This document shows positions 185-20,470 of a stretch of DNA of 22,572 bases, piece after piece. The notes beneath the pieces were generated by a model, which did no database searches, was not told where the DNA came from, and saw nothing but the letters and a program-made list of their open reading frames with translations. This stretch comes from Candidatus Aenigmatarchaeota archaeon (GTDB lineage Archaea > EX4484-52 > B79-G9). A program made the translations under genes and the position numbers. The stretch spans positions 1 through 22,572 of the forward strand of contig JAGLIP010000001.1 of NCBI GenBank assembly GCA_023142905.1. The letters are read 5' to 3'. The stretch's first letter is position 1; each line of letters begins with the position of its first letter.

Positions 185-3100
185 TCAAAACAGCGCAGCA
201 AATCCTAAAATCCATAAGAATATATACCCCACAATCAAAAACTCTCCAAGAAGCAGAAGATATAATATCATGCGAGGAACATCTGATTTCGGTCTCTCAC
301 CCATCTGCGCTTTTCTTTTTCTTATCCGCGCATAGACCACCAAAATCAAAGTCCATAAAAGTGCCAAAATAGGTGTCAACTTCCAGCCGAATGGCAATAA
401 CGGCGGTGCAGGCTTCACAATGATTGTAATCGGTGCAAAAGCATATGCCTCTTCTTTTGACTCAATTATAAGGCTTGTCTTACACATTTTAGGCCCTTCA
501 AGAGAAGTCACCTTAAGTTCTAAAGAGCGCGTCTCATTAATCTCTATTATTGAGTCAAGACTGTCCTGAAAGCTTAGGCAATCTTCTGCATTTTCAAGCC
601 GCATAGTTACATTGTGCAAAACTTTTCGTCCGGTATTTTTAACAAATATCGGTATTGTAAGATTAGACAACTGATCCATCTCAACTTCAAATGGTGATTC
701 CAAAATCTCTATTTTTGCCAGATGTTTTCCAAATAAAACAGTAACTTGAATATACGATATATCTGCGACCTCGCCATAAACAATTGCCTTTATAGGTATC
801 ATATATATTGCCGGTGTTGTATTCTCTCCGGGCCGAATCATAAGCGTCCGGTTCACAGTAGCCCCTGCTAAAAGAGTCCCTATAATTGTTTCTGAAAAAT
901 TCCATTCAGGACCGGGAAGTACCGGCTCAATCAGGACATTAGTTACCGTAGCCCCTAAATTTTCAACATCGAAATATGTCGGAATTGCCTGACCTTGATA
1001 GACCACATATTTATCTTCAATCGGTGTTAAAATAATCTCAACTATCGGTATTGGTTCCTGCTCAGGTTCAGGCGTTGGATCAGGTTCAGGCGTTGGTTGT
1101 GGTATGGGTTGAGGTGTAGGCACACGATTCTCCGGCTGTTTTGCAACTACGAAAAGTCCCGGTATGTATTGTGCATCCATTTCAGGTGCCCCGCCATCAG
1201 ACGCATTTACAGGAAGCAAAAACATCTCATCTACAAGGCTTTTTGCCGTAAATGAGAAAACAACATTTTCACCGTTTGAGACATTGCTGGTTCCGGTACA
1301 CATCACCCAGGGATATGGATCCGCAGATTCGTAATTATGGATTGTCAAAGAGCATGAAGACCCGGAAACAAACTGTGCAGAAGTTACTTGCCAGATTGAA
1401 GGTATATCAATTTTTATATACCATGTACCTGAAGGTCTTGTGTCTCCTGAAACAGATGTTGAATTTACCGTAAATGTTGTATCTTCAAGAGCCATAAAAG
1501 ATCTTCTTCCTCGCGCATCGGCCAAGTCTTTCCCTTCAGGAACAATATCATAATTGAAAGATGGCTTATTTATAAGATTCATCTCACGGGATTCGGCAGG
1601 GTTGTATACGGGCATTTTCTCATATACGCTTTTTGTAAAGTTATAGGCATCAAGATATGTTCCGGAAGCAGAAAATACATACTTCGTCTTCATAGAAGAA
1701 GAATAAACATTCATTTTTTCAGAAGGGACAATAGAATAATCAAGTATTACATATGCTCTTGGAAAAAGCTTTTCAGTTATAATAAATTGAACATAATACT
1801 GATAGTCTTTATCACCCGGAAGTACAGTGCAGGTATACGCAGAATTTGAATTACATATATAGTCTATAGGCTCAGCATCTTCCTTCAGTGCAGATGTATT
1901 CAGGTACATGCTTTCAATTATTGTAATATTTGAGGTATTTTCATTTCCAGAATTATATACTATAAGCCGCACATTCGTCTGTGTGCAGGATCCATTCCAA
2001 GGGTTAGTTGGGCTGCAATTTGTTACCTGGTATATCTGCGGCGGCATCTCACGAATTATAACTAAATCAGACGGCCCCACACCGCCGTATTTCTTTACCG
2101 TAAAATTAGCAGACCCATTGGTCGCACCATTACAAAAAAACGGCATGCCTTCAACAATAGTATTCACAATATATGTTGAATTCATAACCGCAATATACTC
2201 GCCTTCAGGATATTCATCACTGTATTCGGTATATGTTTGTCCGGTATAATTTCCGGGAACTAAAATCCCCGAATAATTATATGTTGGCAGGCTCTTAAAA
2301 AAAATGTCCGGTCCTTCCGCAGTTTTTCTGTAAATATTAAGTGTTGATCTAGTACTATTATATGCAACAGAACCGCAATTTTCAAGATATGCGTAAATCT
2401 TAAAAGGTTGACCTTCATAGACGGTATCTGGATCTACATAAATTATCTGCATGCCGCAACAGGCCGGATCAACCTTTATATCCACTTTCGCATCATCAAC
2501 ATAGAACGGGACATCCGTAAAATAATAGTCTTTGCTTTTAATTATATTTCCTTCGGCATCCTCAACAAAAATATTGAATACATAAAAAACTTCATGATCC
2601 GTTATCGTGTGAGACCAATAATGCAAAGAGCCAGAGGTATTAAGTGCTTCCCGAATTGGAGTGTGAAATGGCATACCGTATATAATCGATGCATTAACAA
2701 CATCTGAATTGTTGTTTGTGGAATTTGTATCATCGGTTATGTCTAAATAAAATTCGATATCCTGACCTAAAGAATTATAATAAATAACCCCTAAAGAAGT
2801 TTTAGTGGATCCATAAGCAACCAGGAAATCTAATGTTGGGGGATATCCAATTGCATAAAAAGTTTTTATAGCTGATGATTTCCAAACCCCCCCTTCTTCA
2901 ATCCAAATCTTGTATTTGTATGCCGGGCTGTAAGTATCAATGTTTAATACTGATGTGGTATTTGCAGGCCCATAAATAAAAGAATAATTCCATTCATCAC
3001 CTATATTTCCATCAAAATTCATCGTAAAATTTTTGGATTCTGATAACGGTTCAATAATCTCAAGGCGGGCATCAGTTATTGCCTGCGCCCCCCAGGTTAT

Positions 3101-3583
3101 TACAGTTGTGTTAATAGAAATATTATCAACATCATATATTATCTGAGGACCTGAATCAATTATGTCTAAAAAATAGGGGTATTCTCTTGACTGAAATGCA
3201 AAAATTCCTGTTTGGCTGACATTCCCGTCGATTGTATTCACCCATACACGATAGATATACTGTGAAACTGTCGCCGGATCAAAAAGAAAAGTATATTCAC
3301 TATTATTTGCATCAATAATTGTTATTGTGTCATTTAAAACATCCCCTGCTTCTGGGTCAAGTATCTTAAGATATGCTGTATCAACAAGCGAGCCATTGGT
3401 TGTTATGTTTACAAAAACAGTTATATTTCCGCCGTCAACAGAAATAGGATCCGGCAAATCCACAGGTTCTGAAATTATGGCGGGTGCTGCATAAACAAAA
3501 GGAATTAATAAAAACAGAACCAATAGTAAAAAATAGTTTTTCCCGGCAACTGTTGTTTTTTTCATCAAATCAAACCAAATCAT
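185..3583 (-). CDS. Membrane-anchored surface protein with Pro/Glu spacer and C-terminal two-helix hairpin
   Basis: 1132 residues from an ATG overlapping the preceding stop (ATGA). A second ATG at 3565 (residue 7, MKKTTVAGKNYF) gives a more typical signal peptide and may be the real start. Residues ~34-360 are repeated Ig-like beta domains. The region ~370-520 resembles CARDB-type 'N-x-G' domains (motifs such as YENCGSVAYNST and VYNSGNENTSNI). Further beta-rich sequence follows to ~820. A Pro/Thr/Glu/Gln spacer (~821-846) is followed by two more CARDB/NEW3-like domains (FDVENLGATVTNV; FVKNTGRKVLHNV). The end has two hydrophobic helices (~1067-1087 and ~1105-1132) joined by a basic loop (RKRKAQMGERPK), placing the loop inside and the extreme C-terminus outside or in the membrane. 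It is the last gene of the cluster on this strand, with oligo-T runs shortly downstream. It is probably a surface or anchoring component; no catalytic motif is seen. Confidence 0.9.
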   Translation of the reverse strand: MIWFDLMKKTTVAGKNYFLLLVLFLLIPFVYAAPAIISEPVDLPDPISVDGGNITVFVNITTNGSLVDTAYLKILDPEAGDVLNDTITIIDANNSEYTFLFDPATVSQYIYRVWVNTIDGNVSQTGIFAFQSREYPYFLDIIDSGPQIIYDVDNISINTTVITWGAQAITDARLEIIEPLSESKNFTMNFDGNIGDEWNYSFIYGPANTTSVLNIDTYSPAYKYKIWIEEGGVWKSSAIKTFYAIGYPPTLDFLVAYGSTKTSLGVIYYNSLGQDIEFYLDITDDTNSTNNNSDVVNASIIYGMPFHTPIREALNTSGSLHYWSHTITDHEVFYVFNIFVEDAEGNIIKSKDYYFTDVPFYVDDAKVDIKVDPACCGMQIIYVDPDTVYEGQPFKIYAYLENCGSVAYNSTRSTLNIYRKTAEGPDIFFKSLPTYNYSGILVPGNYTGQTYTEYSDEYPEGEYIAVMNSTYIVNTIVEGMPFFCNGATNGSANFTVKKYGGVGPSDLVIIREMPPQIYQVTNCSPTNPWNGSCTQTNVRLIVYNSGNENTSNITIIESMYLNTSALKEDAEPIDYICNSNSAYTCTVLPGDKDYQYYVQFIITEKLFPRAYVILDYSIVPSEKMNVYSSSMKTKYVFSASGTYLDAYNFTKSVYEKMPVYNPAESREMNLINKPSFNYDIVPEGKDLADARGRRSFMALEDTTFTVNSTSVSGDTRPSGTWYIKIDIPSIWQVTSAQFVSGSSCSLTIHNYESADPYPWVMCTGTSNVSNGENVVFSFTAKSLVDEMFLLPVNASDGGAPEMDAQYIPGLFVVAKQPENRVPTPQPIPQPTPEPDPTPEPEQEPIPIVEIILTPIEDKYVVYQGQAIPTYFDVENLGATVTNVLIEPVLPGPEWNFSETIIGTLLAGATVNRTLMIRPGENTTPAIYMIPIKAIVYGEVADISYIQVTVLFGKHLAKIEILESPFEVEMDQLSNLTIPIFVKNTGRKVLHNVTMRLENAEDCLSFQDSLDSIIEINETRSLELKVTSLEGPKMCKTSLIIESKEEAYAFAPITIIVKPAPPLLPFGWKLTPILALLWTLILVVYARIRKRKAQMGERPKSDVPRMILYLLLLGEFLIVGYIFLWILGFAALF
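1048..1122 (-). repeat. Pro/Glu-rich spacer with short DNA repeats
   Basis: Encodes a Pro-Thr-Pro-Gln / Pro-Glu-Pro spacer of about 25 residues in the last gene. The plus-strand word caggttcaggcgttgg occurs twice nearly back to back, so the spacer length could vary by slippage. It separates the N-terminal beta domains from the two membrane-proximal CARDB/NEW3-like domains. Confidence 0.7.
3580..3583 (-). other. ATGA stop/start overlap
   Basis: The stop TGA of the 296-residue protein overlaps the first ATG of the 1132-residue protein. Coupling is likely, although the ATG at 3565 may also be used. Confidence 0.75.
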
Positions 3584-4470
3584 TTAGATTTCCATATTCT
3601 ATAAAGCACAAACGCGCCCAAAAGCACAAACAGGATAGTATATATATTGTATGCGCCAGAGGATATTGCATTTCCTGTTGCAAGACCGGTTATGAGATTT
3701 CCGCCATCATCATTTAAAGCATCATCATTTTCTGTACCTTCACTCACCCCACCGGCATCGCCCAAAACATTAAGCCCGTCGGTATTAAGGTTAGGATTAT
3801 TGCCATTACGGTCATCAGTTAAAGGAAGTTCATCATTAACGAAATTATTCCCCAGATCTGAAAAAGAACTATCGGTAGTTGTATCATCCGTATTGTCATT
3901 TCCTGAATTTCCGGTATCCGGATTCGGGCTGACACCGCTTATATATACAGTCACAGGAAATTCGCGAATTTGTCCTATTGGTGTTAAAGCGCCTTCTGAA
4001 GAATTACTTGCCTGAACCGTCATTGCGCGAAATAAAATATGATAAACATTTCGCGCATATGTATTTTTATTAGGCACCTGTATTGAAAAATAAACTTTTT
4101 TTGCCGGAACATATGTATCTCCCTGCACAACCCAGGTCTTGTCCGGATCAGATGCAGGCGTTGTTGTTATAAGCCCTCCCGGAAGGAAAACATACGGATT
4201 TGTTGCAAGCCCCACAACATCCCGCTGCATAACATAAGTATACATATCAACCCCTGAAGAAGAACTATAAATTGGCATGACCTGCACTAGTTCTAAATTA
4301 ATGTCCCCATCCCCCGTATTAAAAAAAGAGACTTCTATATTCTTATGCTCTCCCGGAGCAAGAGTAATATTTGAAACAGTCATAGTGCTCCCAAGAGAAA
4401 CACTGGCATGTGCAATTGGCAGTGCAAAAAACACTGCAAAAACAACTAAAAACAAAAATTTTATTGGCAT
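3580..4470 (-). CDS. Small membrane-anchored surface protein with Asp/Asn-rich stalk
   Basis: 296 residues. Residues 1-22 are a signal peptide (hydrophobic core FLFLVVFAVFFALPIAHA). A single beta-sandwich-like domain (~23-180) opens with SNITLAPGEHKNIEVSFFNT. That is the 'P-G then N-x-G' pattern of carboxypeptidase-D/transthyretin-like or DUF916-like surface domains, but I cannot assign a family firmly. Residues ~183-255 are a low-complexity Asp/Asn/Gly/Thr stalk. The tail has a small-residue motif ITGLATGNAISSG, a transmembrane helix (~275-291) and a short basic end (WKSK). The start is supported by GGGTGAGGG six bases upstream. A 66-base gap separates it from the giant protein gene, and it overlaps the next gene by ATGA, so the two are probably co-translated. 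Its size and topology suggest an accessory or anchoring partner of the larger surface proteins; this is inference from context. Confidence 0.88.
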   Translation of the reverse strand: MPIKFLFLVVFAVFFALPIAHASVSLGSTMTVSNITLAPGEHKNIEVSFFNTGDGDINLELVQVMPIYSSSSGVDMYTYVMQRDVVGLATNPYVFLPGGLITTTPASDPDKTWVVQGDTYVPAKKVYFSIQVPNKNTYARNVYHILFRAMTVQASNSSEGALTPIGQIREFPVTVYISGVSPNPDTGNSGNDNTDDTTTDSSFSDLGNNFVNDELPLTDDRNGNNPNLNTDGLNVLGDAGGVSEGTENDDALNDDGGNLITGLATGNAISSGAYNIYTILFVLLGAFVLYRIWKSK

Positions 4471-4536: not shown

Positions 4537-5390
4537 TCACGCAGTTCCATTCACTTTCACCCACACGGTTCCTGAATACCCGCCCACCTGTGAAGATATC
4601 CCGTATGGCACATCCAAAAACAGCACAAAATCCTGCGATTGACCGGAATTAAGGCTGGCAAGCATCAGAGTATAATATTCCTGAAGCTCATTTGCAGATG
4701 TTGAAAGACATGCAACAGCCGAATTAGGCGTTGGGTATGCTGCAAGATTTCCAAGGCATCTCGAAATATTGTGTATTGGTATCTCATACGATGACGCTTG
4801 TATTGATGTCAAATTCTCACCAATAATCCAGACACCCCCGTTTGCATCAGATGAATTGTCAGACAACGATACCGTGACAGCACTTGACGCCCTTGTGCCT
4901 GTAGTCCCTGGCTCAATCCAATTTACAGCCCCTAAATAATTATCTGCAGGATCTGTTGGCACATCATGCCATGTGCTTATCGCATCAGGAGTTACTGTCA
5001 ATATCAAAAGATATTTTATTTCAATTGTTGCGTTCAAAGTCCGGTTATCCACTGAGGCCGTCCCTTCAAAAAGAACAGTTATATTCCATACCGTATCAAT
5101 GTCTCCTGTTGCGTTTATCACCCAGGTTAAATTGCATTCATCATTCTGGCTCATAACACCGCAGGTTTTAGGATTAGGCTCCCCGTCATTGACATAGAAC
5201 GGAGTTCCGGAACCAACAGGTATTGTATTAGGCCCAATTGTCGCATTTGAATACTGCAATGTGCCATCAACTGTACCGCATGCCCCGTTTATGCATTTTA
5301 CAGTCGCATTTACGGTTATGTTCCTGTATTGCGCAACTTGTGTTGTTGCAAGTTCAGGCGGCACAACTAAAGAGACTTCAAAAGCTCCGC
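4537..5390 (-). repeat. C-terminal module, copy in giant protein
   Basis: About 285 residues with landmarks NITVNATVKC, CG-x-V-x-G, IPVGSGTPFYV, PNPKTCG, CNLTWVINATG and an end at VNGTA. It is homologous to the last 255 residues of the surface protein encoded at 19704-22572. The four cysteines of the first half (K-C, A-C-G, T-C-G, E-C-N) are conserved between copies. No membrane helix follows, so the module itself may carry the attachment or assembly function; that is inference. Confidence 0.85.
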
Positions 5391-8300
5391 TAATACCGGT
5401 TTCAGTTATATTCACAGTTGTATTGTCCTCAAATACAGAAGTCATATTGTAATAGACATCAGCATCATCGGTTATGTTGCACATAGGATAATATATCCCC
5501 CCGGCATAAATTGAGGAATCAGCAAACCAGTCATATGTCGCGTTTCCTGTAGATGAGCTTATATTGTCTCCAAGATACCATGTTTGTGTCTCATTATACA
5601 CATAAAAACTCACCGTATGGTTCCAAATACCCGAATTTGTATAATTATTCGCAGCAAAGCATGTAAGCGGTATTGTAGCCCCTTGAGAATAATTACTTAC
5701 CGAAGCAGGCGACTGCCACGAAATATTTGACCACCCCCAGACATAAATTGTTATATTGCTCTCATCAGAAGTATAAGCCGTCTTTGTTACATTCACCCTT
5801 ATTGTTTCAGACCCAATGGAATGCTCAGCAGGAATCGTCCATGTGTAATTCTCATCTATGTCTGTCGGGTTTAATTTTGCCGTGGTATTATACCATTTTG
5901 CAGTATCTGGCGTTATAGGCGTTATTGGATTTTTTGTAATGGATTTAAGATTAACAGAATCGCCCAAATTCACATTTGTCTTATTTGCGGGCTCAATTAT
6001 GGTTGTATTAAGAACCCCACCAAGAGTTATTGTCGCGGAATCTTCGTTGTTTGCGCTGACACTCTCATAATAATAAATGGTCGTGTTATCTGATATCGAG
6101 CAGCTATAAATGTAAGATTTCGGCGTGTATCCTGTTGTGTTTACTTTCAATATAGCAATGCCGCTTGAGTTGGTGAAGTTTGTGCCAATTGGGTTTCCAT
6201 CCTCATAAAAAAACACTTTATATCCTTCAATTACGGTCAGGCTGTCCTCATCAGATACATTGCAGGCCGTATAAAAAACATCACCCTCATCATACCCCGC
6301 CCCGTTTTCAGGCACACCCATGCTTATCCGGCCATACCCATAAACTGTAAACTGAAGATACTCTAAAGTATTGTTCCAGTTATTAAATATATCCGATGCA
6401 TTGAGTTTTGCAACATGGGAGCCAACAGTCCAGCTTTGGTTTATCGTAAATGTATGATTTGTCCAGTTTCCCGAAACTGTTTGTGTTGCCTCGCTTATAA
6501 TTGGCGTTGTCCTATTGAATGACACAAAAGAACCACTGGTTGTGTCTATAGCCTCATCCCATTCAGCGTATATTTTCAAAGAATTTACCGAATTTACAAG
6601 CCCTCCTTTGTTCACCTGCGTTGCGTTCAGGTCGTAGTTATTTGTATTTGGAGGCGTTATATCCACCAATCTTACATGTAATAGGTCATAAGCAGAATCC
6701 AAAGAAATATCTGTATCATATTTCAGTGTATTGTTGTTGTATATCTGGCAGGTGATATAATAATCAACATCTGACAATGAGCCATCAGTATAATTTACCG
6801 AAACCCACCCGTTTGAATCTGTTATGCTGGTATTAAATACTTCTGTATCATTCCAGAACTCCACAAAATAACCGGAAATTGGATTGGATGACTTTTCGTC
6901 GATTACCCGGCAGCTGATGTTCGTTGTTGTGCCGTTAAATATTATATCCGGATTAAGTATGCCATTACTTACAGTTGACCAGCCCCACACATCCAAAGTC
7001 CTGTTTTCAGTTACATTAAGGTTGCCTGAAGTATCATTGGCCCAAACCCTCCATGTAAGATTATTCGGCATATCCATTTCAACAGGAACCTGTATTGTAA
7101 AGTTTGCCCAATCCTGCGTGCCGGACATAGCAGCAGGGGTAACAATAGTATTGTTCTTCCATACAGTTCCATTATGCCATTCTACAAAACCGTAAGACAG
7201 CTCAAAATTATCAGTCCAGTTTGAATAAAGATATGCATATTCGCCCTTGTATATTTTTCCGGTAATATTTGAATCAAGAGGCAAATGCCATTTTGGCGGC
7301 GCGCCTTCAAGAGTTGTAAGTGTTATATTCTGTTCATTGGTCAAAGAAGCGTTATATTTCTTTGATGGATCGTCAATTATGTAGCATGAAAGATTCTCTT
7401 CACCGGGGCTGTTATCCTGATAAGAATACGATGCCCAGCCGGAGAATACCGTCGTGTTTGAGCCAAGATACGAAGTAGAATTATAAAACAACACAGTATA
7501 CCCGGAAATTGATGTTGAGTCATCGGCCGTAACTTTACAGCGTATTGTCGTACTCTCGCCAACATCTATAGTATTGTCTGTAAGTTCTATATCGCTTGCA
7601 AGTATATATGACCAGCCCCATACATCAAAAACAAGATAATCAAGAGTATAGTTGAAATTATCATAAGTGTCATTGGCGTAAATCTTTACAGCATGATCTC
7701 CTAAAAGCCAGTTAGAATCTGTTGATATTGTATAATTTGTCCACGACCCCTGCGGCGTTATAGTGTGATTTGAAAAGGATGAAGCAGTTGAATTGTACTC
7801 CACCAAAGCAGCACCAATAGTCTCATTCCACTTCGCATATACCAAAATCGTATCTCCGCGGTTTATTTGGGTCATGTTTGTGCCATATATGCTGTTCTCA
7901 AGATAGGGTGAATCATAATCCTCATCAACAACATTGTAGGTATCATATTCAGTTCTGGTAAAATCTGTTGTATTTATTGTAAATCTTACAGAATATGTGC
8001 CCTGCGAGTTAGCCGTTACATTAAATACATAAAAGAAAGTTGCATTGTCCCCAATCTGAACAAGTCCTCCAAGTGTGGAATTCCACGCCACAATACCTTC
8101 TGACCAGTTCCCACCTGTAAAGTTCTGCGTGTTGTTGCCATACCAGATATCATTTGCCGAATTTATCTGCCATGTAGAATTAAGGGTTTGATGAGTTATG
8201 TTATCAGAATCCGTAATGGTCCAATTCGCCTCACTTGTATCGCTATTATTAATTTCCACTTCAAAACGATAATCATGATTGACAAACAAGTCAAATGTTT

Positions 8301-11300
8301 CATTAAGCCCTGTCGCCCAAAGAATTGACTTATCTGTCTTTGGGTCAGAGGCATCAGTCACATCATAAATTCTTACTTCAACAAATGTAATATTTACAGA
8401 TTCTGTTATGTTAAATTCATACACATCACTTATATTTTCGTTGTTATCATTTTTAAGAATATTATCAAAAGGATCCGTAAGAGCGGCATAAATACGATAT
8501 AATCCCGGCTCGTTTTTGTCAGTATTCCAGCCAATAGAATTCCATATATCATAAATTGTAAGCTCAGAGTTCGACACAATTGTTTTCACGGAATTATACA
8601 CCGTATCTACAACAGACCATGTGCCGTCAACAAATTTTTGAACCTGCATCAGAAGGTACCCTCGTATGTTTGTCGAGCCGGTATTCAGCAATTTAGACTC
8701 ATTATTCGTCTCCTCCGCCCCAATGGATGCTGTAGCTGCCTGATAATACTGGTAAAACGCTGTTTTGTCGCTGTCAGCATGGCTGTTATTGAAAAAATTT
8801 GATGAATCCCCTTTCGAGATACCTGCAAGATGCGTTGATTGATCATAAAGTACTGTTGAGTATCGAAACATTATATCTCCTGTCTTGTAAAGCACCATCT
8901 GCAACAAAACATCAGAACCGGCGCCTCCGCTATTGGTGTTTGTATCCCAGGTATATATTACGCGGTCAGAATATTCTTTTTTGTAAGTATCTTCATTGTT
9001 TCCAATCCACGGATCATAATCATCCCAGATGACCGCCGCCATTTTCCTTGCAATAAATTCGCTCTCTGATGGCGTCGGGTCAACTGTAGGGTCTGTAAAA
9101 TCCACAAACCCATTGTCGAAAATATTTGTTGTTGTATAGTTTGTTCCAAAAAATGAGAAAGTAAATGGAAGAGCATAACTGTTTTTGACCTGTTCATCAT
9201 CAAGATTAAGCGCCGTTTTCCCGGAATCATCATCAAGTCCCTGGGGAATATCCTGTCTGGAATAATAAACACTCGAGCAATCGGAAGCATTCGATGCCTC
9301 ACTGCAAGAATCAGCCCATATTGTATAGCTCGGGGTTATTGCCGCAGTATTGGCATAATACAGATAATATGTATTTGTCGATGTGTTGGTTATGTTTACA
9401 ATAAACGAAAACTCAGCAGACTGGCACTTTTCTTGAGAGTAAGCCTCGCTGATTATCCTTATCGGTATTTCTGTACCAACACTATCTATTATCCTAAAAT
9501 CCCTTATACAGTTAAGCCCGTTTCCATCGGTTGAGACATTTACATAGAACGGCCAGTTTGTCCTGTTTGAAACGCCCGGTTCAGTTACATTTATCTCTTT
9601 TCTGTACTGCCATGATGAATTCCACCACCCTAGCGGTGCGCTTGTTAAATTCACATCCTCATTTGCCCGGTATGTATCGTTTAGTGTTTTCACCACAAAA
9701 GAAGCATTTGCCGCCACATAAAAATTGTAGGTCTGGCTTGTGTTTGTCTCACCCGCAGTATTGTTTGCCCAGATATAATATGCGTGGGCGCCGCGCTGCC
9801 AGATATCTGTAAAATTATACGAGAAATTTTCAGGCGTTGCATTCACCATCACAAAATTTGATGTTGTTGTGTTCGGATAGGTTATATAAACCTTCACACT
9901 ATCAACGCCATTATCATCGGATACATTCACTGATAGGCTTACATTATATCCAAAACCAACAGTCTGCGGTGATGCTATTGTGCCTGTGAAATTAGGCCGG
10001 TCATTTACAGTTATATTGATTGTAGTAAAATTTAAATTAAGATATATCGCATCGCTTCCCGCAAAACTTGCATTGAGTATATGAACGCCCGTAAATGCAT
10101 CTGATGGTATTGCATAATTTATTTCTGCAAGCCCCGCCCCATCCGTAATATCTTTTCCTATAAAATAAGGCTGTGTTGTGTCATTAAATGAAACATTAAG
10201 ATTTGAAACCGCAGTTCCATTGTCATAATAAAGCCATACTTTAAGATTTACCGTATCTGCCGCGACAACCACCGTGTCATTTACCTGAAAATTTGAAAGT
10301 GTTGTGTTTGCATACACTAAAACATCTACATTCGTCCAGTCTTCCCTGCTTTCATTGTCTGTTGACCTTAATCTTATCTGCTGTTGCCCGAGAGCAGCGG
10401 TTATACTGACATTTGCCGTTATATTATTCCACAAAAGAGAGCCGCCCAAAAGTTCATCAGTATATTGCGTCAAATTCCCCGAATAGTTTGTCCACCCCGA
10501 AGGGAGTGTCCAGTTAGCCCATATTTTGTAAAGAGACGAAGCTATTGTATTATTCGCATAACCGATAAGGTTTGCATAGCCATTTCTCGTTATTTTTGTC
10601 ATAGCCACAGGAATGGTTACATTTGTTACAAGCTCTCCGCCAACGCGTATTTGAAGAATCTTATTTTTCTGCCCAACCCATGTACGGGCATCGCCTGTAG
10701 GGTTTGTATAGTTTACAGTAACATTAAGATCATAATCTCCTGCAGGGGTCGAGCTGTTTGTTGATATGTTAAATGGTGCAATTTCTTGCATGCCGTTCGT
10801 CACATTTAAAAGATTACAATAATCCTGCGCCTCCTGGCCGGTTAAAGTACAGTTGCAAATAATCCCCGTAATCTGGGGGCAGTTCATCGTGATAATAACA
10901 TCTGTTATGTTTTTAGACCATACATTCCCGATTGTAAAATTATATTCCGCAAATTCTCCTGAAAATATTTTTACCGGATTGAGTGTAGATGAGAAATTAT
11001 CAGGCATGTGATGAACTGTAAAATTCACACTATTGTTCTGGTTGGATGCGCCGTTCTGCCAGTCAATAAAAACATTCCAGTAAAAAGTATACACTCCCGC
11101 GGTTGCATCTAACGGTATTATATATCCGCTTGTTGAATTATCATAAGTTTGTTCGCAGGTACTTCCTTCGGGGATATCGCCGCAGCCTTTTGTCTCATTT
11201 GAAGGTCCCCATGAGACATCATCCTTGCTTGTGTCCTGAACATTCAAAGTAATGTTCGCATCAATAGCAATAGCATTCTGGGCAATAACAGTTATGTTAA

Positions 11301-14300
11301 TCCAATTTATTACATCTCCTGTCTCATATTCATTAATCGAGAAAACCTCAGGATTCTTATGTTCAATATCTGTTACAACAACAGTTGCGCCAACAATCGT
11401 AAAATTGTATGTCGCCATAAGGTATACATTGTTCTCATCACGCATCATTACAGGCGGCATAGATGCATCATAAATTGCAAGCTTAACACGATATAACCCC
11501 GTAGCTCTTATAAGCGTGTTCCACCCCTCCGCATCCCATAAAGAACCAAGATAGGTTATAGAGTTATTGGCTGTCTGCCTGTCTGTTTCTGCCATTGTAT
11601 CATCCAGAACCGGATTTCCTAAATTTACCCAGCTTCCGCTGTCGTATTTCTGAACTCTAAGTATTGTCCTATATGTCACATCCGTATTTCCAATGTTTTG
11701 AACTTTTGATTCCCTAGGCTCGGCATCACTCTGCGTTTGGGTAAGCGTCCCTGAAGGAGCACCTCCCGACAGCGCAGCGTAGCTTGGATATGTCTTGTTT
11801 TCAAGCTCCGCCACATCAAAGTAAACATAATACGCCCTCTCTGTATCTGCCGGGGTCGTACCGTTCATATCCCACGAAATATCAAGTAATGCATTTGATT
11901 TCTCATCATAAGAACTGCCATTTACACTCAAGGTTATATTATCAAAATCAGCATATGCATACTCATCATTATCCCAATCGCCAATTTTAAGACCCATATC
12001 AAGATAATACCATCCCGCAGATGTTATGTATTGGGTCACATCAAAAGAGAAACTATCAGATATTGATGATGGGTCAACTGCAAAATAGACTTCATTATCC
12101 CCATCAGCAAATGGGTCTCCAAAATCTAGATTGCTTCCAAGATAATACATCTGCGTTGTAGTTCCGATTCTTGCCTTTATCCATAAGACATCGCCGGAAT
12201 CAAGACCAAAATCAGTTACAGACCAGTCGAATGAAAAATTTGCCTCTCCGCCGTTTGAAATTGCGTCAGATACATATTCGCTCACATAAAACGAAACCCC
12301 GTATGCTCCCGAAGCCTGGCCGTCATTATCACAGAAATCATCTCCAATTGTTATTCTAATCAAATCATCATTCAAAACATCAGCATTATTAAAAACAACA
12401 CAGGTTGATGAAAGGCCGTAAACGCTTCCTGCCCAGTCCCAGCCGTCATTGGATCCGGATGATCCGAAAGTGTTTGCCGTTGAGTTAAGCCCGTTTGTAA
12501 AATCAACAGGCTGCGGCATATCTTGTGAAACTTCCCACAGGTCAATCTCTGGCGGCGGTGTATCAACAAAACTTGAATTTATTTCAATATTTATGCCTGC
12601 GGTTTCATTCCATTCTATGATTCTGACAGAATTATTGTCTAAAGACATCCCGTAAGCCCCAAGATAAAAAAGATGTTCTGTAAAATCCACAGTCTCTGTT
12701 ATCAGCACATCAGTCTCCAAAACTGTGCTCGACACAGTCACAGGAATACGATAATTAAAGGATGTATTCCACCAGTCATGCGCTTTTATCTTTACATCTT
12801 CATTAGGGCCGTATTCTTTTTTCTCAGTTATTGCCCTTATAGATAAGTTTGAATAAACATTAAAATAACGAATATCATCGGAGGTGTCATTGTAAAGGCC
12901 GAAAGAATCATTAGCCCACACATAAAAACTATATGTTCCGTAAAGCCATGCAGTGTAATTGTAGCCCCATCTGCCCGACTCATTTGTCCCCGAAACAAGT
13001 GTCATAGGGTAAGAAATCTCTCCGTAAACACTATGATTTATGTAAACAAGTGCAGTTTCAATCTGGTTTGTATCATTTATGCTTACCCACATACTTACAG
13101 GATAACCATTCCCGACAACAGATGGCGAATTAGAAACATTGAACAATATAACAAAATCATGTACATTAATTTCTGTTTCAATACTTGAAGGATTTGTATA
13201 TATCACAGAACTTCCGTTATAAGACACATTTATTGTGTGATTTCCGGTATTGGATGTTATCGGCACCATGTAATCCAGATACACCCATCCAAGAGAATCT
13301 GTAATATTAGTTCCCATTAAAATGCTGTCAGTTTCGTCAAAAAACTCTACTGTTTCCCCAACAACCACAGTATTATTGTCATATCTCAATTTTGCCGTTA
13401 TCCTCACGGTCTGACCGCGTATCGGATCATATGGTTTTGAAGGCTGGTCAAGATTTGCGACATCCAGATTATAAAACACGGTATTTGCGTATACATCAAT
13501 AAGCGCATAATCATCATCATGCCCGCCCTCAGTTGCATTTGATGATAGGTTTAATCTTTCTTGACCCAAAGGCGCAGAAAGGCTTATTGATGCTGTGATG
13601 TTATTCCATGAAGTGTTGCTGTAATTTAAAGTTCCCGCATACTGTGTCATATTTCCTGTAACATTCGACCAGTGCGTGGGAAGCGACCAGTTGAGCCACA
13701 CATTTGTCTTGTTAGTATCCCCCACATATGTCACCTTACCATAAAGATCCTGATTCGTATTTCTTGTGACTTTTGCAGGGGCATCAAAAACAGCAACAAT
13801 AAGATCTTCAGAACTCTGAATCTCAAGTATCCGATTTTGAACTTCAGGCCATGTGTGCGCCTGATTGCCTGGATTGGTATAATTCACAGTAACATTCACA
13901 TCATAATTTATCATGGGTGTGCCCGATGTGGTGGATACATTAAATGATGCGTAATTTGTAGCCAAAGATGTTATGTTTTCAAGTTCGCAATAATCCTGAT
14001 TTGTCTGTCCTAAAAGAGTGCAGTTGCACACGATACCTATTGCCTTCGGGCAGTTTATAGAAACATTCACAAAAGTTAAATTTTTGCTCCAGGGATTGTG
14101 TATTGAAAAATTGTATAACCCATCATCTCCCTGTATGAATTTAAATGGAGTTGGGTCTATTTGGGAATTCAAGTCATTTTCGGGAATATTATATATTTTG
14201 AAAGTCGCAGACGAATTCTCAGTCGATGTACCCGACCAAAGAACAGTTGTGTTTAGCTTGTATGTTCCGGCGATTTCACCCTCAGGAATTATGTATCCGT

Positions 14301-15573
14301 ATGAGACATTATCATAAGAAACCTTACAGGTTGTGTCTTCCGAAAGAAGGGAAGCACATTCTTTGTTGTCATCCGGCCCCCAGAGCACAATACCGTCAGT
14401 TGTGTTTAGTATATTAAGTGTTGTGTTTACTTTTGATGCGTTTGCGCTTTTCGCTTCAGCGGTTATGTTTATCCATGTTATGTTGTCAAGAGTCTCGTAT
14501 TCCAAGACACCGAAAACATTCTTGTTTTCATATTCAATATCCGTCTGGCTTACAACAGACACTAAAACATACTCTGTTTCATCAGAAACATTCGCTTCGG
14601 AATTCAAAGATGTTGAATTACATCTTACAATATAACTCCCAAGCTCTTTTTCAGTAATCGTAAATGAAAAACCATCCGTTGCGCCATTTGAAATGTTCCC
14701 CGCATCATACAATGCATTGCTTGTGGTAAGGTTCGAAGAGATTGTAGGCATATTAATAAAATCAGTACAACCAACACCCGTGCAATACTGAGGATAAAGG
14801 ACAACATCATTGCACTGGCCAAAATCGCATGTAGCATTGCATGTAAGTAAAAATGTTCCTTCATCATAACCATATACTATTGCAGTTGGGACAGTCATGT
14901 TTGTTGTAAGAATTACACCGCCATAGGATAAATCAACTCTGCTGTTTCTTGTATTAATATCATAACCAAGATAATAAAAAATATTCCGATTATCCCCGGA
15001 ACCTTTATCTGTTGAAACATACGGATGCACCTCAGCTATTAGTCGATGCCCTTTTGGAAGTAAATAATTGACATTTGAAAGAGTGTATGTATATTCCGCA
15101 TAACTTATAGAACCCATTAGCGTGTCAGTATCATTTGTTGCAATCACGGTTGTTGATGCATCATCCGGGTCAAAATCAATCAGCTTCACAAAATCTATAC
15201 TGACTTGATCCTTGTTTCCCGCAATAGAAGAAACATACGACCAGAAATAAAAAATCTGTGTGCCGGTTACATTAATATCGTAATCAAACACAGGGGAATA
15301 AAAATCATAATGAGGGCAATCATCCGTTGAACATGAATTGCTTCCAAAACTATCTTCCCTTAATGTGCCCGTAGGTGCTGTGTCATTAAAAAGGCGGTTT
15401 GATGTTGTTGAAAGCCCGACAGATACATCAGGGTCAACCCAGTGAAAATAATAAGTTGGTGTGACGATGGCCGCATAAACCATCACAACATTTGCAAATA
15501 ACGCCAATATAATAATAATTGACAAAAACAGATTTCCTTTTGCACTTACCTGCGATTTAGGATTAATTCTCAT
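4537..15573 (-). CDS. Giant modular secreted surface protein (3678 aa)
   Basis: An uninterrupted 3678-codon gene. Residues 1-35 form a signal peptide (hydrophobic core FLSIIIILALFANVVMVYAA). The order is: jelly-roll-like domain (~36-225); Cys-rich Ig-like domain (~226-342); two tandem copies of a ~1000-residue unit (~343-1395 and ~1395-2392); an 'IWY' module (~2393-2552); four ~200-residue units carrying a VWGWS-like hinge (~2552-3395); and a terminal module with four cysteines ending at VNGTA. Each large unit contains a C-x7-C-x-C-x10-C motif, Ig-like and invasin-like domains, and a DUF2341-like domain starting WWN-S/T-S. Copy 1 carries an inserted jelly roll; copy 2 carries a NIDO-like domain (PFTFSFFG, later WDDYDP). 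There is no C-terminal membrane helix, so retention must be by another route. It is very rich in N-x-S/T. The start overlaps the upstream stop by ATGA, with AGGT 10 bases before it. It is probably a surface fibre or adhesin; the function is inferred only from architecture. Confidence 0.93.
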   Translation of the reverse strand: MRINPKSQVSAKGNLFLSIIIILALFANVVMVYAAIVTPTYYFHWVDPDVSVGLSTTSNRLFNDTAPTGTLREDSFGSNSCSTDDCPHYDFYSPVFDYDINVTGTQIFYFWSYVSSIAGNKDQVSIDFVKLIDFDPDDASTTVIATNDTDTLMGSISYAEYTYTLSNVNYLLPKGHRLIAEVHPYVSTDKGSGDNRNIFYYLGYDINTRNSRVDLSYGGVILTTNMTVPTAIVYGYDEGTFLLTCNATCDFGQCNDVVLYPQYCTGVGCTDFINMPTISSNLTTSNALYDAGNISNGATDGFSFTITEKELGSYIVRCNSTSLNSEANVSDETEYVLVSVVSQTDIEYENKNVFGVLEYETLDNITWINITAEAKSANASKVNTTLNILNTTDGIVLWGPDDNKECASLLSEDTTCKVSYDNVSYGYIIPEGEIAGTYKLNTTVLWSGTSTENSSATFKIYNIPENDLNSQIDPTPFKFIQGDDGLYNFSIHNPWSKNLTFVNVSINCPKAIGIVCNCTLLGQTNQDYCELENITSLATNYASFNVSTTSGTPMINYDVNVTVNYTNPGNQAHTWPEVQNRILEIQSSEDLIVAVFDAPAKVTRNTNQDLYGKVTYVGDTNKTNVWLNWSLPTHWSNVTGNMTQYAGTLNYSNTSWNNITASISLSAPLGQERLNLSSNATEGGHDDDYALIDVYANTVFYNLDVANLDQPSKPYDPIRGQTVRITAKLRYDNNTVVVGETVEFFDETDSILMGTNITDSLGWVYLDYMVPITSNTGNHTINVSYNGSSVIYTNPSSIETEINVHDFVILFNVSNSPSVVGNGYPVSMWVSINDTNQIETALVYINHSVYGEISYPMTLVSGTNESGRWGYNYTAWLYGTYSFYVWANDSFGLYNDTSDDIRYFNVYSNLSIRAITEKKEYGPNEDVKIKAHDWWNTSFNYRIPVTVSSTVLETDVLITETVDFTEHLFYLGAYGMSLDNNSVRIIEWNETAGINIEINSSFVDTPPPEIDLWEVSQDMPQPVDFTNGLNSTANTFGSSGSNDGWDWAGSVYGLSSTCVVFNNADVLNDDLIRITIGDDFCDNDGQASGAYGVSFYVSEYVSDAISNGGEANFSFDWSVTDFGLDSGDVLWIKARIGTTTQMYYLGSNLDFGDPFADGDNEVYFAVDPSSISDSFSFDVTQYITSAGWYYLDMGLKIGDWDNDEYAYADFDNITLSVNGSSYDEKSNALLDISWDMNGTTPADTERAYYVYFDVAELENKTYPSYAALSGGAPSGTLTQTQSDAEPRESKVQNIGNTDVTYRTILRVQKYDSGSWVNLGNPVLDDTMAETDRQTANNSITYLGSLWDAEGWNTLIRATGLYRVKLAIYDASMPPVMMRDENNVYLMATYNFTIVGATVVVTDIEHKNPEVFSINEYETGDVINWINITVIAQNAIAIDANITLNVQDTSKDDVSWGPSNETKGCGDIPEGSTCEQTYDNSTSGYIIPLDATAGVYTFYWNVFIDWQNGASNQNNSVNFTVHHMPDNFSSTLNPVKIFSGEFAEYNFTIGNVWSKNITDVIITMNCPQITGIICNCTLTGQEAQDYCNLLNVTNGMQEIAPFNISTNSSTPAGDYDLNVTVNYTNPTGDARTWVGQKNKILQIRVGGELVTNVTIPVAMTKITRNGYANLIGYANNTIASSLYKIWANWTLPSGWTNYSGNLTQYTDELLGGSLLWNNITANVSITAALGQQQIRLRSTDNESREDWTNVDVLVYANTTLSNFQVNDTVVVAADTVNLKVWLYYDNGTAVSNLNVSFNDTTQPYFIGKDITDGAGLAEINYAIPSDAFTGVHILNASFAGSDAIYLNLNFTTINITVNDRPNFTGTIASPQTVGFGYNVSLSVNVSDDNGVDSVKVYITYPNTTTSNFVMVNATPENFSYNFTDIWQRGAHAYYIWANNTAGETNTSQTYNFYVAANASFVVKTLNDTYRANEDVNLTSAPLGWWNSSWQYRKEINVTEPGVSNRTNWPFYVNVSTDGNGLNCIRDFRIIDSVGTEIPIRIISEAYSQEKCQSAEFSFIVNITNTSTNTYYLYYANTAAITPSYTIWADSCSEASNASDCSSVYYSRQDIPQGLDDDSGKTALNLDDEQVKNSYALPFTFSFFGTNYTTTNIFDNGFVDFTDPTVDPTPSESEFIARKMAAVIWDDYDPWIGNNEDTYKKEYSDRVIYTWDTNTNSGGAGSDVLLQMVLYKTGDIMFRYSTVLYDQSTHLAGISKGDSSNFFNNSHADSDKTAFYQYYQAATASIGAEETNNESKLLNTGSTNIRGYLLMQVQKFVDGTWSVVDTVYNSVKTIVSNSELTIYDIWNSIGWNTDKNEPGLYRIYAALTDPFDNILKNDNNENISDVYEFNITESVNITFVEVRIYDVTDASDPKTDKSILWATGLNETFDLFVNHDYRFEVEINNSDTSEANWTITDSDNITHQTLNSTWQINSANDIWYGNNTQNFTGGNWSEGIVAWNSTLGGLVQIGDNATFFYVFNVTANSQGTYSVRFTINTTDFTRTEYDTYNVVDEDYDSPYLENSIYGTNMTQINRGDTILVYAKWNETIGAALVEYNSTASSFSNHTITPQGSWTNYTISTDSNWLLGDHAVKIYANDTYDNFNYTLDYLVFDVWGWSYILASDIELTDNTIDVGESTTIRCKVTADDSTSISGYTVLFYNSTSYLGSNTTVFSGWASYSYQDNSPGEENLSCYIIDDPSKKYNASLTNEQNITLTTLEGAPPKWHLPLDSNITGKIYKGEYAYLYSNWTDNFELSYGFVEWHNGTVWKNNTIVTPAAMSGTQDWANFTIQVPVEMDMPNNLTWRVWANDTSGNLNVTENRTLDVWGWSTVSNGILNPDIIFNGTTTNISCRVIDEKSSNPISGYFVEFWNDTEVFNTSITDSNGWVSVNYTDGSLSDVDYYITCQIYNNNTLKYDTDISLDSAYDLLHVRLVDITPPNTNNYDLNATQVNKGGLVNSVNSLKIYAEWDEAIDTTSGSFVSFNRTTPIISEATQTVSGNWTNHTFTINQSWTVGSHVAKLNASDIFNNWNNTLEYLQFTVYGYGRISMGVPENGAGYDEGDVFYTACNVSDEDSLTVIEGYKVFFYEDGNPIGTNFTNSSGIAILKVNTTGYTPKSYIYSCSISDNTTIYYYESVSANNEDSATITLGGVLNTTIIEPANKTNVNLGDSVNLKSITKNPITPITPDTAKWYNTTAKLNPTDIDENYTWTIPAEHSIGSETIRVNVTKTAYTSDESNITIYVWGWSNISWQSPASVSNYSQGATIPLTCFAANNYTNSGIWNHTVSFYVYNETQTWYLGDNISSSTGNATYDWFADSSIYAGGIYYPMCNITDDADVYYNMTSVFEDNTTVNITETGISGAFEVSLVVPPELATTQVAQYRNITVNATVKCINGACGTVDGTLQYSNATIGPNTIPVGSGTPFYVNDGEPNPKTCGVMSQNDECNLTWVINATGDIDTVWNITVLFEGTASVDNRTLNATIEIKYLLILTVTPDAISTWHDVPTDPADNYLGAVNWIEPGTTGTRASSAVTVSLSDNSSDANGGVWIIGENLTSIQASSYEIPIHNISRCLGNLAAYPTPNSAVACLSTSANELQEYYTLMLASLNSGQSQDFVLFLDVPYGISSQVGGYSGTVWVKVNGTA
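5390..7920 (-). repeat. Four tandem ~200-residue 'VWGWS' units
   Basis: Within the giant protein, four consecutive two-domain units each contain an Ig-like domain (pattern ..W..; ..ANDT..N.N) ending in a hinge. The hinges are VWGWS (7610-7627), VWGWS (6976-6993), VYGYG (about 6330-6347) and VWGWS (5729-5746). Each hinge leads into a second, invasin-like domain with a cysteine pair (for example C-K-V..GYTVLFYN..C-Y-I). Hinge spacing is about 200-217 residues, showing a regular array. The third copy has Tyr in place of both Trp. Confidence 0.82.
7925..8395 (-). repeat. 'IWY' module, copy in giant protein
   Basis: About 155 residues with landmarks STWQINSANDIWYGN, FTGGNWSEGIVAW, FFYVFNVT and DTYNV. 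It matches a module in the surface protein encoded at 19704-22572. Here it sits just before the VWGWS array; in the other protein it directly precedes the C-terminal module. Confidence 0.82.
8400..11390 (-). repeat. Tandem duplication unit 2 inside the giant surface protein
   Basis: About 1000 residues paralogous to the unit at 11390-14550. Matching landmarks are DIEHKNPEVFSINEYET, the GYIIP segment, the same C-x7-C-x-C-x10-C spacing, NYTNP..TW, AALGQQQIRLRS, the YYIWANNT Ig-like domain, WWNSSWQYRKEI (DUF2341-like, ending TYYLYYANTA) and ESKLLNTGSTN..GLYRIYAALTD. It differs from unit 1 by holding a NIDO-like domain (about 9300-8720) where unit 1 has a jelly roll at another position. Boundaries are approximate. 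Confidence 0.85.
11390..14550 (-). repeat. Tandem duplication unit 1 inside the giant surface protein
   Basis: About 1050 residues of the 3678-residue protein. The unit starts near DIEYENKNVF and runs through a GYIIP segment, the four-cysteine motif, NYTNP..TW, APLGQERLNLSS and the FYVWANDS Ig-like domain. It continues into the DUF2341-like start WWNTSFNYRIPV and closes with ESKVQNIGNTD..GLYRVKLAIYD. Every landmark recurs in the same order in the adjacent unit 8400-11390. The copies are clearly diverged at the DNA level, so the duplication is old. Boundaries are approximate. Confidence 0.85.
15570..15573 (-). other. ATGA stop/start overlap
   Basis: The stop TGA of the CBM-containing gene overlaps the ATG of the giant protein gene, indicating translational coupling and co-transcription. 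Confidence 0.85.
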
Positions 15574-18500
15574 TTCTTTTTCGACCTAATATTTTCTTTT
15601 ATTTTACGCAATTGCTGTGTTCTTATTGACTGCGCTAACTGAATATTTCTTCGTTTGGGTATTCTTCGCTTCACATGCTCTTGCACATTCTTATTTGTAA
15701 CAAGAAGTCCTGTTCCTGCAAGCGCAAGAAGTGAAGCAAGGACAGAACCGATAGATGCGATATAATCAAAAAATCCTTTTTTGTCTTCAACTTTATCTAA
15801 ATTATTGTTTGTATTTGTTTCCTGCGTTTCATTCAAATCCCTTATTGCATCTGGCTGCTCATTTTCATCTTCAGGAATATTCTCAACAATATTCGTTCCA
15901 TCATTGCTATCTTCTGTATCTTCAGGGATTTCTAGAAAGAGTGTACTTGGCGTGTTGGTGTTTTCTTCAGGCACATCATCTACAGCCACATCACAGTCAC
16001 CGCCGGTTATTTTGTATTTTTTTTCCGGTGTTTCGACTATATTTCCGTCCGTATCATTTGCCCACCAGACATATTTGTATTCTCCGCACGCAAGGTCAAC
16101 CAAACGATATTCATAAGTAATATTCGACCGGTTACTATCTGTATAATCCACACCATCAAGTTTGAAAACAACAGAATCTATACCAAAATCATCAATCCAA
16201 TCAATACTAAAAACATATTCTTTATCTTGTACCCATTCAGTTGGTGATAATGGCGAAACACCTCTGTTCGACCATTGCGGTTCAAAAGGAAGATAGTTTA
16301 TTTCAAGACTGTTAGTTCCAAAAGTTGCTGTTAAGTCAAACAACACCAAAGTTCCGGAAACATTATTGTAAACATACTTGTTTGTTTCAAGAACCCCGCC
16401 ATTGTAAGACACCGTTGATATGACTCTATGCGGTTCAGTATTCAATTCAGTCTCATCAACAATGTAATCAAAAACATCACTATTTTTGATATTTACAGTT
16501 CTTAAATCCTCAGAAATGCTGCTTGAAATAACCTCAACATCTATTTTTTCAAGCAGTTCATCAGCACCATATATAACTTCTGCACTGCCCGAATCATCCA
16601 GATATACTTTTTCAATAAGGTTTTGGTTCATCCGTAAAATAGCCTCATCAAAAGTTTCGCTGTCCGCTTCAGCTTCGCTTAAGACCGATGTAAAAACATG
16701 CATAGATATTTTCGCCGAACTGCCAGAACCAACACTTCCTGTATTGAATTCAAACACTGTTGAGGGTATAATACTGCCATAATCAGCATAAACAAGTTCA
16801 AAAGAATCATTTATCTCTGGCGGGAGCAAAAATGACTCATCCGCCATATCCGTATTTTTAAGATAAGTTGTGTATGGCTGAATCGGGCAATAAAGCGCAC
16901 TTTGATGCACCTGCTCTTCTGCCAAACCAATGCATCTTGTTTTTTCCTGGTGATGCATCAATTCTTTTGTGGTATTACTATTTTCGTAAAACGCATACTG
17001 CTTGTTTAGGTCATCATTCTTAAGCATGTATACAAAGTCAACAAGCCAAACATCATAATTCTTAGAAACCATATCAATATTTGTAAGTTCATAAGAAAGT
17101 ATTGTTTCAGCCCCTTTTACGATAATTGTCCTTTTTAAATCGGCAGTTATATTTTGGACATGCTTGTACGCTGTATGCGTAAAACTATCTGCATCAATCT
17201 GTGTCTCCGTGTTATCCCACCCCACATTTGCCCAATAATTTGAAGGGCTTATAGCATCAAAAGCACCTGTTCCGGTTGATATGTGAAGCCCCTCGATTGT
17301 AAAAGGTATGCGATATTGTTTTGAAACATTGTCTGTCACAGTCCATCTGCTTGGCTCGCCTTCAAGCTGGCCGTATGAGTAAAAATTATAATTAGTTGCT
17401 TTATTGACGGAACTATCAAAAATAACAGAACTTATTTCCATATCCGGTTCTTGCATTTCAAAACCTTTTGGAGCGTATTTTACAAAAGGCAAATCTGCAA
17501 TGATTCGGGTCGTAGTATTTGAAAAGTGTATAAATGCACCATTAAAATTCGTTATTCCGTTATGCTCACCTTTGCCCAAAAAATATCCATGTGCCCCAAC
17601 CACCTTTTCAAATGTTGCCTCAATTCCGCGACTAGTTATCTCAAAAAAAGGCATATTTGCAGAAACCTCTAAAATATCTCCATCAGAAACATAAGGCCAG
17701 ACAACCCGCACATTGGTATAATTCATAGAAAAATTCGTAGGCAAAATGAACGCGTATTCTCTTTCAGCTGAAAATGTCCAACTCCCATCGGTATCAGATA
17801 TAGGCTCTACCCACCGGTTCAAATCAAAATTTACCGGCTCTATTGTTGCATTCCATGTAATAAATATTGAATGCTCATTTTCATTAAACTCAGGAACTTC
17901 AAAGAAAAGTTTGGCGGGATATGAAGAATCATCCAATGTTATTGCAAGTGATAAATTTGACTGAATCACATATTCATCACCAAGTTCATCATCACCATTT
18001 GTATCGTAAAGACCCCACAAATTAATGGTCATATTTTTATCATCCGTATTGTTCAGCGTTACTTTGTAAGCCATAAGAAACGGGTTGCCGGTTGTAATAT
18101 TTTGTGAGTTCTGAAAATATGTTTCTTCAGGATACTCAACAGTAAATGTTCTTGTTGTATTTCCTGTATTTCCTGCCTCATCAACACATGATAAGACCAA
18201 GGAATTTAAACCATCCCCCGCCAGAAGGGTTGTATTCCCTAAAAGTGCAACAGTTTCAGTATCATTCAAAGAATAGGTACAGATTACATTTTCCTCACTT
18301 ACAGCATAATTAAGAGGTATCAAATTCGACAAGTATGTTTTCTCTTCAGGCGAAAATAACTGCACAACCGGAGCTGTAACATCAGCATCAAAACTATATT
18401 CCTCAAAGCCCCGGCCGCCGTCAGTATCATTACAATAGACCTTAACTGCGTATATGCCATCCGCATTGAAATATAAAGCATGCTCAAAGACCCCGCCAGC

Positions 18501-19699: not shown

Positions 19700-19704
19700 C
19701 CCTC
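19700..19704 (-). promoter_or_regulatory. Ribosome binding site for upstream start at 19694
   Basis: Minus-strand GAGGG overlaps the stop codon of the preceding gene and stands five bases before the ATG at 19694. GAGG is a four-base match to the Shine-Dalgarno consensus. It competes with the stronger GGTGA site before 19541. Confidence 0.4.
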
Positions 19705-20470
19705 TAGTAAGTTCCGTTCACCATGAAATAAATTGTGCCAATGTACTGGTCTGCTGCAGTTGAATTAGGGACTGTCATCCACCAGTAAAATGTCGTGTTT
19801 GTTCCTGAATTCATTGTGCTTTGCACAGAAAACCAATCACTTTCAAGCTCTTCAACAGTTGCGTGCGTTGTTGCATTCCAGTCAATTGTATCTGTAGACA
19901 CATTGTAGTCCGGCTGTAAAATATTTGTAAGATTGGCTCCCTTAATCCAAAGACCGCCGTCTGCATCATTTGAGTTCAAATCAAGTGTTGCATTGTAAAG
20001 ATTGCCCGCGTTTCCTACAGCAGATAGGTATTCGTTGGGATTGCCTACACCGAAATCAATAAGCGAGAACTGCAAGGAAAGCAAAAGCACTTTCCCGATT
20101 TGCACAGTTGAATCCAAAGTTTCATTGTTCGCAGGAGAAGTGGATGTGAACTCAACATCAATTTCGTACTTATCCTGAAGTGTGCCTGTTGAATTCACAA
20201 CCCATGTAAGTGTGCAATTATCTCCTTCATCCATGGTTCCGCATGACTTAGGGTTCGGCCCGTCATGTATGTAAAAAGGCATCCCCGACCCGACAGGTAT
20301 TGCCGTATCCGGTGCAGCCCCGGTATTGTTATATCTTGCAGTGCCCGAAACAACCCCGCAGTCATCCTCAAAGCACCAGACAGTCGCATTTATTGTAAAG
20401 TTCCTGTCTTTAGGAACAACTGTATCGTCTGGTGGTGTATTAAGTGTTGCATTTATCCAGCCGCCAAGAG
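19704..20470 (-). repeat. C-terminal module, copy in the 5'-truncated surface protein
   Basis: About 255 residues with landmarks NFTINATVWC, D-C-G-V-V-S-G, IPVGSGMPFYI, PNPKSCG, CTLTWVVNSTG, DADGGLWIKGANLT (compare DANGGVWIIGENLT in the giant protein) and an end at VNGTY. The module lies at the extreme C-terminus in both proteins, with the same four cysteines. Confidence 0.85.

Follow-up and report, generated by a model that had tools for sequence, protein, structure and literature searches.

The window, by which we mean the whole analysed stretch of 22,572 nucleotides at the start of contig JAGLIP010000001.1 (GCA_023142905.1) of a tiny, uncultivated Candidatus Aenigmatarchaeota archaeon, comprises five genes, all on the minus strand, whose products measure 1132, 296, 3678, 1374, and 955 aa (genes were taken as the longest open frame, and membrane helices and signals were called with a simple hydropathy window). 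The largest product, giant protein B (4537..15573, 3678 aa), carries 195 N-x-S/T sequons and a hydrophobic N-terminal segment. Its gene is adjoined by that of a 296-aa protein, hereafter partner P (3580..4470), which combines a signal-like N-terminus, a putative Ig-like region, and a C-terminal membrane helix; the gene after P (185..3583) encodes the 1132-aa protein, which ends in two membrane helices and has an 813-aa homologue at the corresponding place in genome G014. Protein A (19704..22571) is visible over 955 aa, its 5' end being truncated by the window end; since its homologue in a congeneric genome (G001), whose end is 91% identical, runs to about 4,210 aa, A and B are both considered giants. 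Between them lies the gene for the 1374-aa protein (15570..19694), which has a C-terminal membrane helix and a basic tail. The hydropathy scan agrees with the original prediction that A and B lack a C-terminal membrane helix and that the proteins at 185-3583, 3580-4470, and 15570-19694 each have one. At the other end of giant B (window 15460-15573), the protein and its close database relatives P0025-P0027 start with KSQV followed by a hydrophobic stretch; we take this start to resemble the archaeal prepilin-type (class III) signal, and it could leave an N-terminal membrane helix in place.

The C-terminal regions of A and B are homologous, as had been claimed: a search of the organism's own genome with the terminal region found just two places at E up to 10, aligned at 41% identity (E 3.7e-39, query 6-283), and BLASTP gives E 4e-41. 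The motifs NATV-x-C, CG, PNPK-x-CG, and C-x-LTWV are present in A and B, as are the VNGTA and VNGTY ends, although VNGT is not a conserved end, as relatives finish in NATY, NATW, VKNGDPQP, etc.; the coding end had been placed at 4537-5390, which is one base off frame, and is correctly 4540-5391 on the minus strand. What had been described as one terminal module is better treated as two halves. The C-half occupies residues 3520-3678 of B (4540..5016, minus strand; profile 1-131 of 132, i-E 7e-37), where the match stops 1 aa before the stop, and residues 827-955 of A (19707..20093, minus strand; i-E 2e-43), where it reaches the last residue. The N-half, a four-cysteine, Ig/fn3-like region, precedes it at residues 3386-3519 of B (5017..5418, minus strand; i-E 9e-47) and 697-825 of A (20097..20483, minus strand; i-E 5e-49). 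Only the C-half retained the terminal character attributed to the module; modelling gives the N-half an ordinary Ig/fn3 fold (in protein A, to which the N-half of B is homologous), and this half has internal copies too. A single-unit module was rejected because the N-half is found without an adjoining C-half and is often divided by a large insertion, and the four cysteines were discarded as a defining feature because they belong to the N-half (all four occur in 45 of 56 N-half rows, 10 of the 11 misses being partial rows).

Several further features of these proteins may be recorded here. The insertion splits the N-half at one place, near profile position 80, in P0006, P0028, P0029, P0030, L071, L072, L076, and L078; precomputed Pfam accessions of FG-GAP type are attached to P0028 and P0029, the former having several split N-half copies in series. 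A second domain common to both giants was located by a BLASTP-type comparison at residues 2400-2548 of B (7930..8376, minus strand) and 549-699 of A (20475..20927, minus strand), with 41% identity (E 6e-26); it is non-terminal in both. This FTGGxW-containing domain occupies different places in A and B, and a sequence resembling it sits, as judged by eye, ahead of the module in P0004-P0006. Giant B also has a Big_3_5 match, which indicates further Ig-like stretches.

The terminal position of the C-half is a general property. It was called with the C-half profile or a profile of stand-alone versions (described below) at an i-E below 1e-3 in 70 genes of the fetched loci. Five of these were set aside, two as duplicate loci, two because the tail was masked, and one because the gene is open at its 3' end. 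In all 65 assessable proteins (20 of them profile seeds), the C-half ends no more than 6 residues from the C-terminus, a placement expected by chance in about 3. These proteins measure between 155 aa, for a fragment lying at the edge of a stretch, and 5183 aa, with a median of 487; none has a membrane helix in its final 60 residues, and one (L146) has an extra internal copy. Of seven further cases, two from loci that the filters had missed and the rest fetched afterwards, six (three of them seeds) are likewise terminal, with tails of 2-5 aa, L159 being cut at a contig end. The expectation of terminal hits was thus borne out almost throughout, the seventh case, the 466-aa protein of L157, having a weak, partial, internal match. 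In the first database search (P0001-P0006), the C-half lies no more than 4 residues from the C-terminus in five of the six proteins, and the sixth, P0005, is named partial and is matched over positions 2-80 only; among seven giants from the last search (P0024-P0030), four have the C-half at the end by profile, with tails of 1 aa, and the other three have similar ends by eye, without a profile call. The loci were picked for their profile hits, and some of them had also contributed to the P and C-half profiles that were then tested on them; the less circular test consists of genome-wide searches of 394 genomes, often incomplete, with the module profile and with P. The module profile finds matches in 70 of the 394, N-half-only matches included, and small frames in other archaeal families.

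The C-half also exists with little else attached. L077 encodes a 187-aa secreted protein that matches it over most of the mature length, and 17 database relatives of 181-215 aa do likewise, one of them named Aenigmarchaeota and one Pacearchaeota. Aligned profile to profile, the stand-alone family and the module are related with a probability of 98.6 (E 8e-16, columns 150-294 versus 32-190). At L130, L131, and L132, small C-half proteins are encoded alongside large ones, accompanied by a P-profile hit in L130 and L132 and without P in L131; in most loci, the window included, no small form lies within the stretch seen. These small proteins bear on the idea that the C-half is an export or sorting signal of the type IX secretion kind, recognised at the C-terminus and possibly removed by cleavage. 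Its strictly C-terminal location would suit such a role, but a protein that is little more than the signal itself is odd for something meant to carry cargo, many C-half proteins start, as judged by eye, with signal-like hydrophobic N-termini, and no Pfam sorting domain matches module or stand-alone members; we consider this explanation very improbable.

When 23 module and 17 stand-alone sequences were compared with Pfam at E up to 1, the matches were scattered and confined to one or two members (best E among modules 0.0042, among stand-alone proteins 0.0049), WxL (PF13731) was not among the families, and Peptidase_M73/camelysin (PF12389) matched neither C-half nor stand-alone members. Two conserved W-x-L motifs are absent from the module and stand-alone alignments (A2 and A4). 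A sequence search of the PDB returned no useful match, and none to archaeal thread or AbpA/TasA; NCBIfam gave no useful match for ten chosen proteins; and the literature, judged by titles and the beginnings of abstracts, contained nothing on the C-half domain. No known Ig family matches consistently, in keeping with the original proposal of a previously undescribed domain.

The gene neighbourhood offers a clue to function. For 44 of 64 C-half genes, the next same-strand gene within 250 bp encodes a protein of 140-450 aa with a C-terminal helix, as against 57 of 624 other genes in the same loci (Fisher p 4e-26); the proximity to membrane-anchored genes foreseen at the outset is thus usual, yet not invariable. 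With a profile of the conserved partner region, and counting the seeds, 34 of the 64 downstream genes score at E up to 1, compared with a single one of the 57 control cases. The linkage holds in the reverse direction too: the P alignment (A7), searched against the 394 genomes, gives 35 hits at E up to 1e-10, of which 29 lie beside a C-half hit (16 of 22 once the 13 seed sequences are removed; hit coordinates were compared by eye), and only in G010, among these 29, does P lie upstream of the C-half gene. P proteins measure 167-325 aa and have one conserved region of about 135 columns; their sub-families F3 and F7 form one family (probability 95.7, E 9e-9), and 2 of 15 members match NEW3-type Pfam families (best E 4.9e-5), which suggests, at the level of sequence, that P may be Ig-like.

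The wider surroundings of P are partly conserved. In related families, a seven-gene surface cluster (F4, F8, F2, F5, the module protein, P, and F6) is kept in six loci, and G360 (L128) has a comparable series of sizes and helices; in the loci with this cluster (L042-L048 and L128), F4, with about 340 aa and a C-terminal helix, is like WxLIP in size and layout. G260 and the window share a pattern of two C-half proteins, P, and then a larger helix-anchored protein, within which the window differs in having the 1374-aa gene between its two C-half proteins. In G012, the genes of two C-half proteins are separated by two others; P is also present, and a 1398-aa helix-anchored protein occupies the place corresponding to the 1374-aa gene. 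Matching gene positions had suggested homology between F6 and the 1132-aa protein and between F5 and the 1374-aa protein, which comparison did not support.

As the C-half is terminal in many archaea and lies beside a small anchored partner, it probably serves in surface attachment or fibre assembly of anchorless proteins. It might instead be an ordinary terminal Ig-type domain with no dedicated attachment role, its position and neighbours having been inherited from one ancestral operon; the adjoining N-half is, after all, Ig/fn3 by model, and the other Ig-like stretches of the giant fit such an origin. We think this rather unlikely, given that the terminal rule and the type of neighbour persist across proteins of 164 to more than 5000 aa whose N-terminal parts differ by eye.

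Structure models point to a pilin-like fold for the C-half. Chaperone-usher, archaeal thread, or bundling-pilus subunits account for 38 of the 50 best VIA matches of the stand-alone model (pLDDT 84.2), and chaperone-usher or thread subunits for 30 of the 50 best Foldseek matches; these include the pilin domains of FimH, PapG, and CsuE, with weak structural scores, and no WxL chain appears among either set of 50. The module model is dominated by the N-half Ig and has no chaperone-usher, thread, or bundling-pilus subunits among its best 50 VIA matches; its Foldseek matches include the WxLIP chains 9i1y and 9i25, which are taken as generic tandem Ig folds. Similarity of the models to donor-strand pilins, together with linkage to a membrane-anchored partner, leads us to favour attachment or polymerisation over export among the roles originally suggested for the module. 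A candidate donor strand can be pointed to. Stand-alone proteins carry a conserved segment after the signal peptide (EQTTxSNVTVxxYVAIGLS), whose SNVTV region forms no strand in the model and aligns, profile to profile, with STVQI of the giants, which is modelled as the last N-half strand (strand 150-155); many Ig matches of the module model span residues 34-156, ending at 155-156. On one reading, this segment completes an adjacent Ig-type fold, acting in cis within the giants and in trans in the case of the small proteins.

Chaperone-usher tip adhesins end in a pilin domain, and the C-half proteins resemble FimH, CsuE, PapG, and FimA in that a pilin-like domain forms the very end of a larger adhesin, the C-half being terminal in all 65 proteins above. 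Stand-alone forms with an N-terminal extension also recall chaperone-usher pilins, to which the modelled fold may correspond, the matches having weak scores; unlike chaperone-usher adhesins, however, the giants reach 5000 aa, and they have no sequence match in the PDB. Neighbours F4 and P have no Pfam chaperone match, and single-membrane archaea would, to our knowledge, be without an usher. A second parallel is offered by the WxL/WxLIP (DUF916-DUF3324) system of Gram-positive bacteria, whose clusters encode small and large domain-bearing proteins together with a two-Ig protein that has a C-terminal helix (PMC10599100, PMC9772566), and in which a DUF916 beta-hairpin strand is predicted to insert into WxL (PMC10599100). 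As in WxL clusters, a C-terminal domain of large proteins recurs in small domain-only proteins, and at L130 and L132 both lie with a helix-anchored, putatively Ig-type P; WxLIP, however, has two Ig domains in 337-365 aa, whereas P has one conserved region in 167-325 aa, and the hosts here are archaeal. With no WxL profile match or motif, the C-half system works like WxL at most, and membership is claimed in neither the WxL nor the chaperone-usher systems. The archaeal thread Saci_0406 has its own neighbours (0405, 0407, and 0408), unlike C-half loci (PMC9715654), and the available portions of the accounts of that thread and of Pyrobaculum AbpA and bacterial TasA (PMC9715654, PMC10151520) describe no giant proteins.

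We propose that the C-half is a secreted beta-sandwich of donor-strand-pilin type that would be obliged to end its polypeptide, and that P, encoded by the next gene and composed of a putative Ig-like region and a C-terminal membrane helix, would bind it after Sec export, probably by an added beta strand, and thereby hold the anchorless giant at the cell surface. Such tethering would be analogous to the binding and stabilisation of WxL proteins that has been proposed for WxLIP on Gram-positive bacteria. We give this proposal about an even chance. A possible but more doubtful alternative is a donor-strand filament made up of small C-half proteins or of F1, a secreted family of about 310 aa, to which the giants would contribute tip or lateral subunits in the manner of FimH and CsuE; P would then act as a membrane-bound chaperone or base only. 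The pilin-like models and the existence of small stand-alone versions are consistent with polymerisation, and F1 is a candidate rod subunit: 26 of the phylum's 34 genomes encode it, the window's own genome doing so four times over in two tandem pairs (G000:C3:662-2658 and G000:C20:120-2252), 4 of 12 members weakly match camelysin PF12389 (best E 0.001; one score of 17.3 bits falls below the 22.5-bit cut-off), and F1 aligns to the stand-alone family with a probability of 88.7. Its similarity to the module is weak, though (probability 22.9), so that F1 was rejected as a direct sequence relative of the C-half; moreover, among the 34 genomes of the phylum, a stand-alone-sized frame is found only in G015, G028 having a 330-aa frame, a genome search found none in the window's own genome, and no filament is known from these archaea. 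Binding of the C-half by P is the key prediction common to polymerisation and to tethering by P.

Beyond the tethering proposal itself, we tentatively suggest, as a bolder and less probable idea, that small-genomed archaea of at least two phyla dock adhesins of up to 5000 residues by an usher-free donor-strand mechanism, of which the literature searched gives no description, onto an anchored Ig partner encoded next to them, and that, because in the giants the homologue of the donor strand forms the final strand of the Ig domain before it, the giant tail is a covalent imitation of two strand-linked pilins. Because the terminal domain comes with a gene partner of its own, the pairing of the C-half with P offers a searchable signature by which candidate adhesins can be marked in genomes that otherwise lack annotation, and archaeal donor-strand docking can be tested directly using two small proteins.
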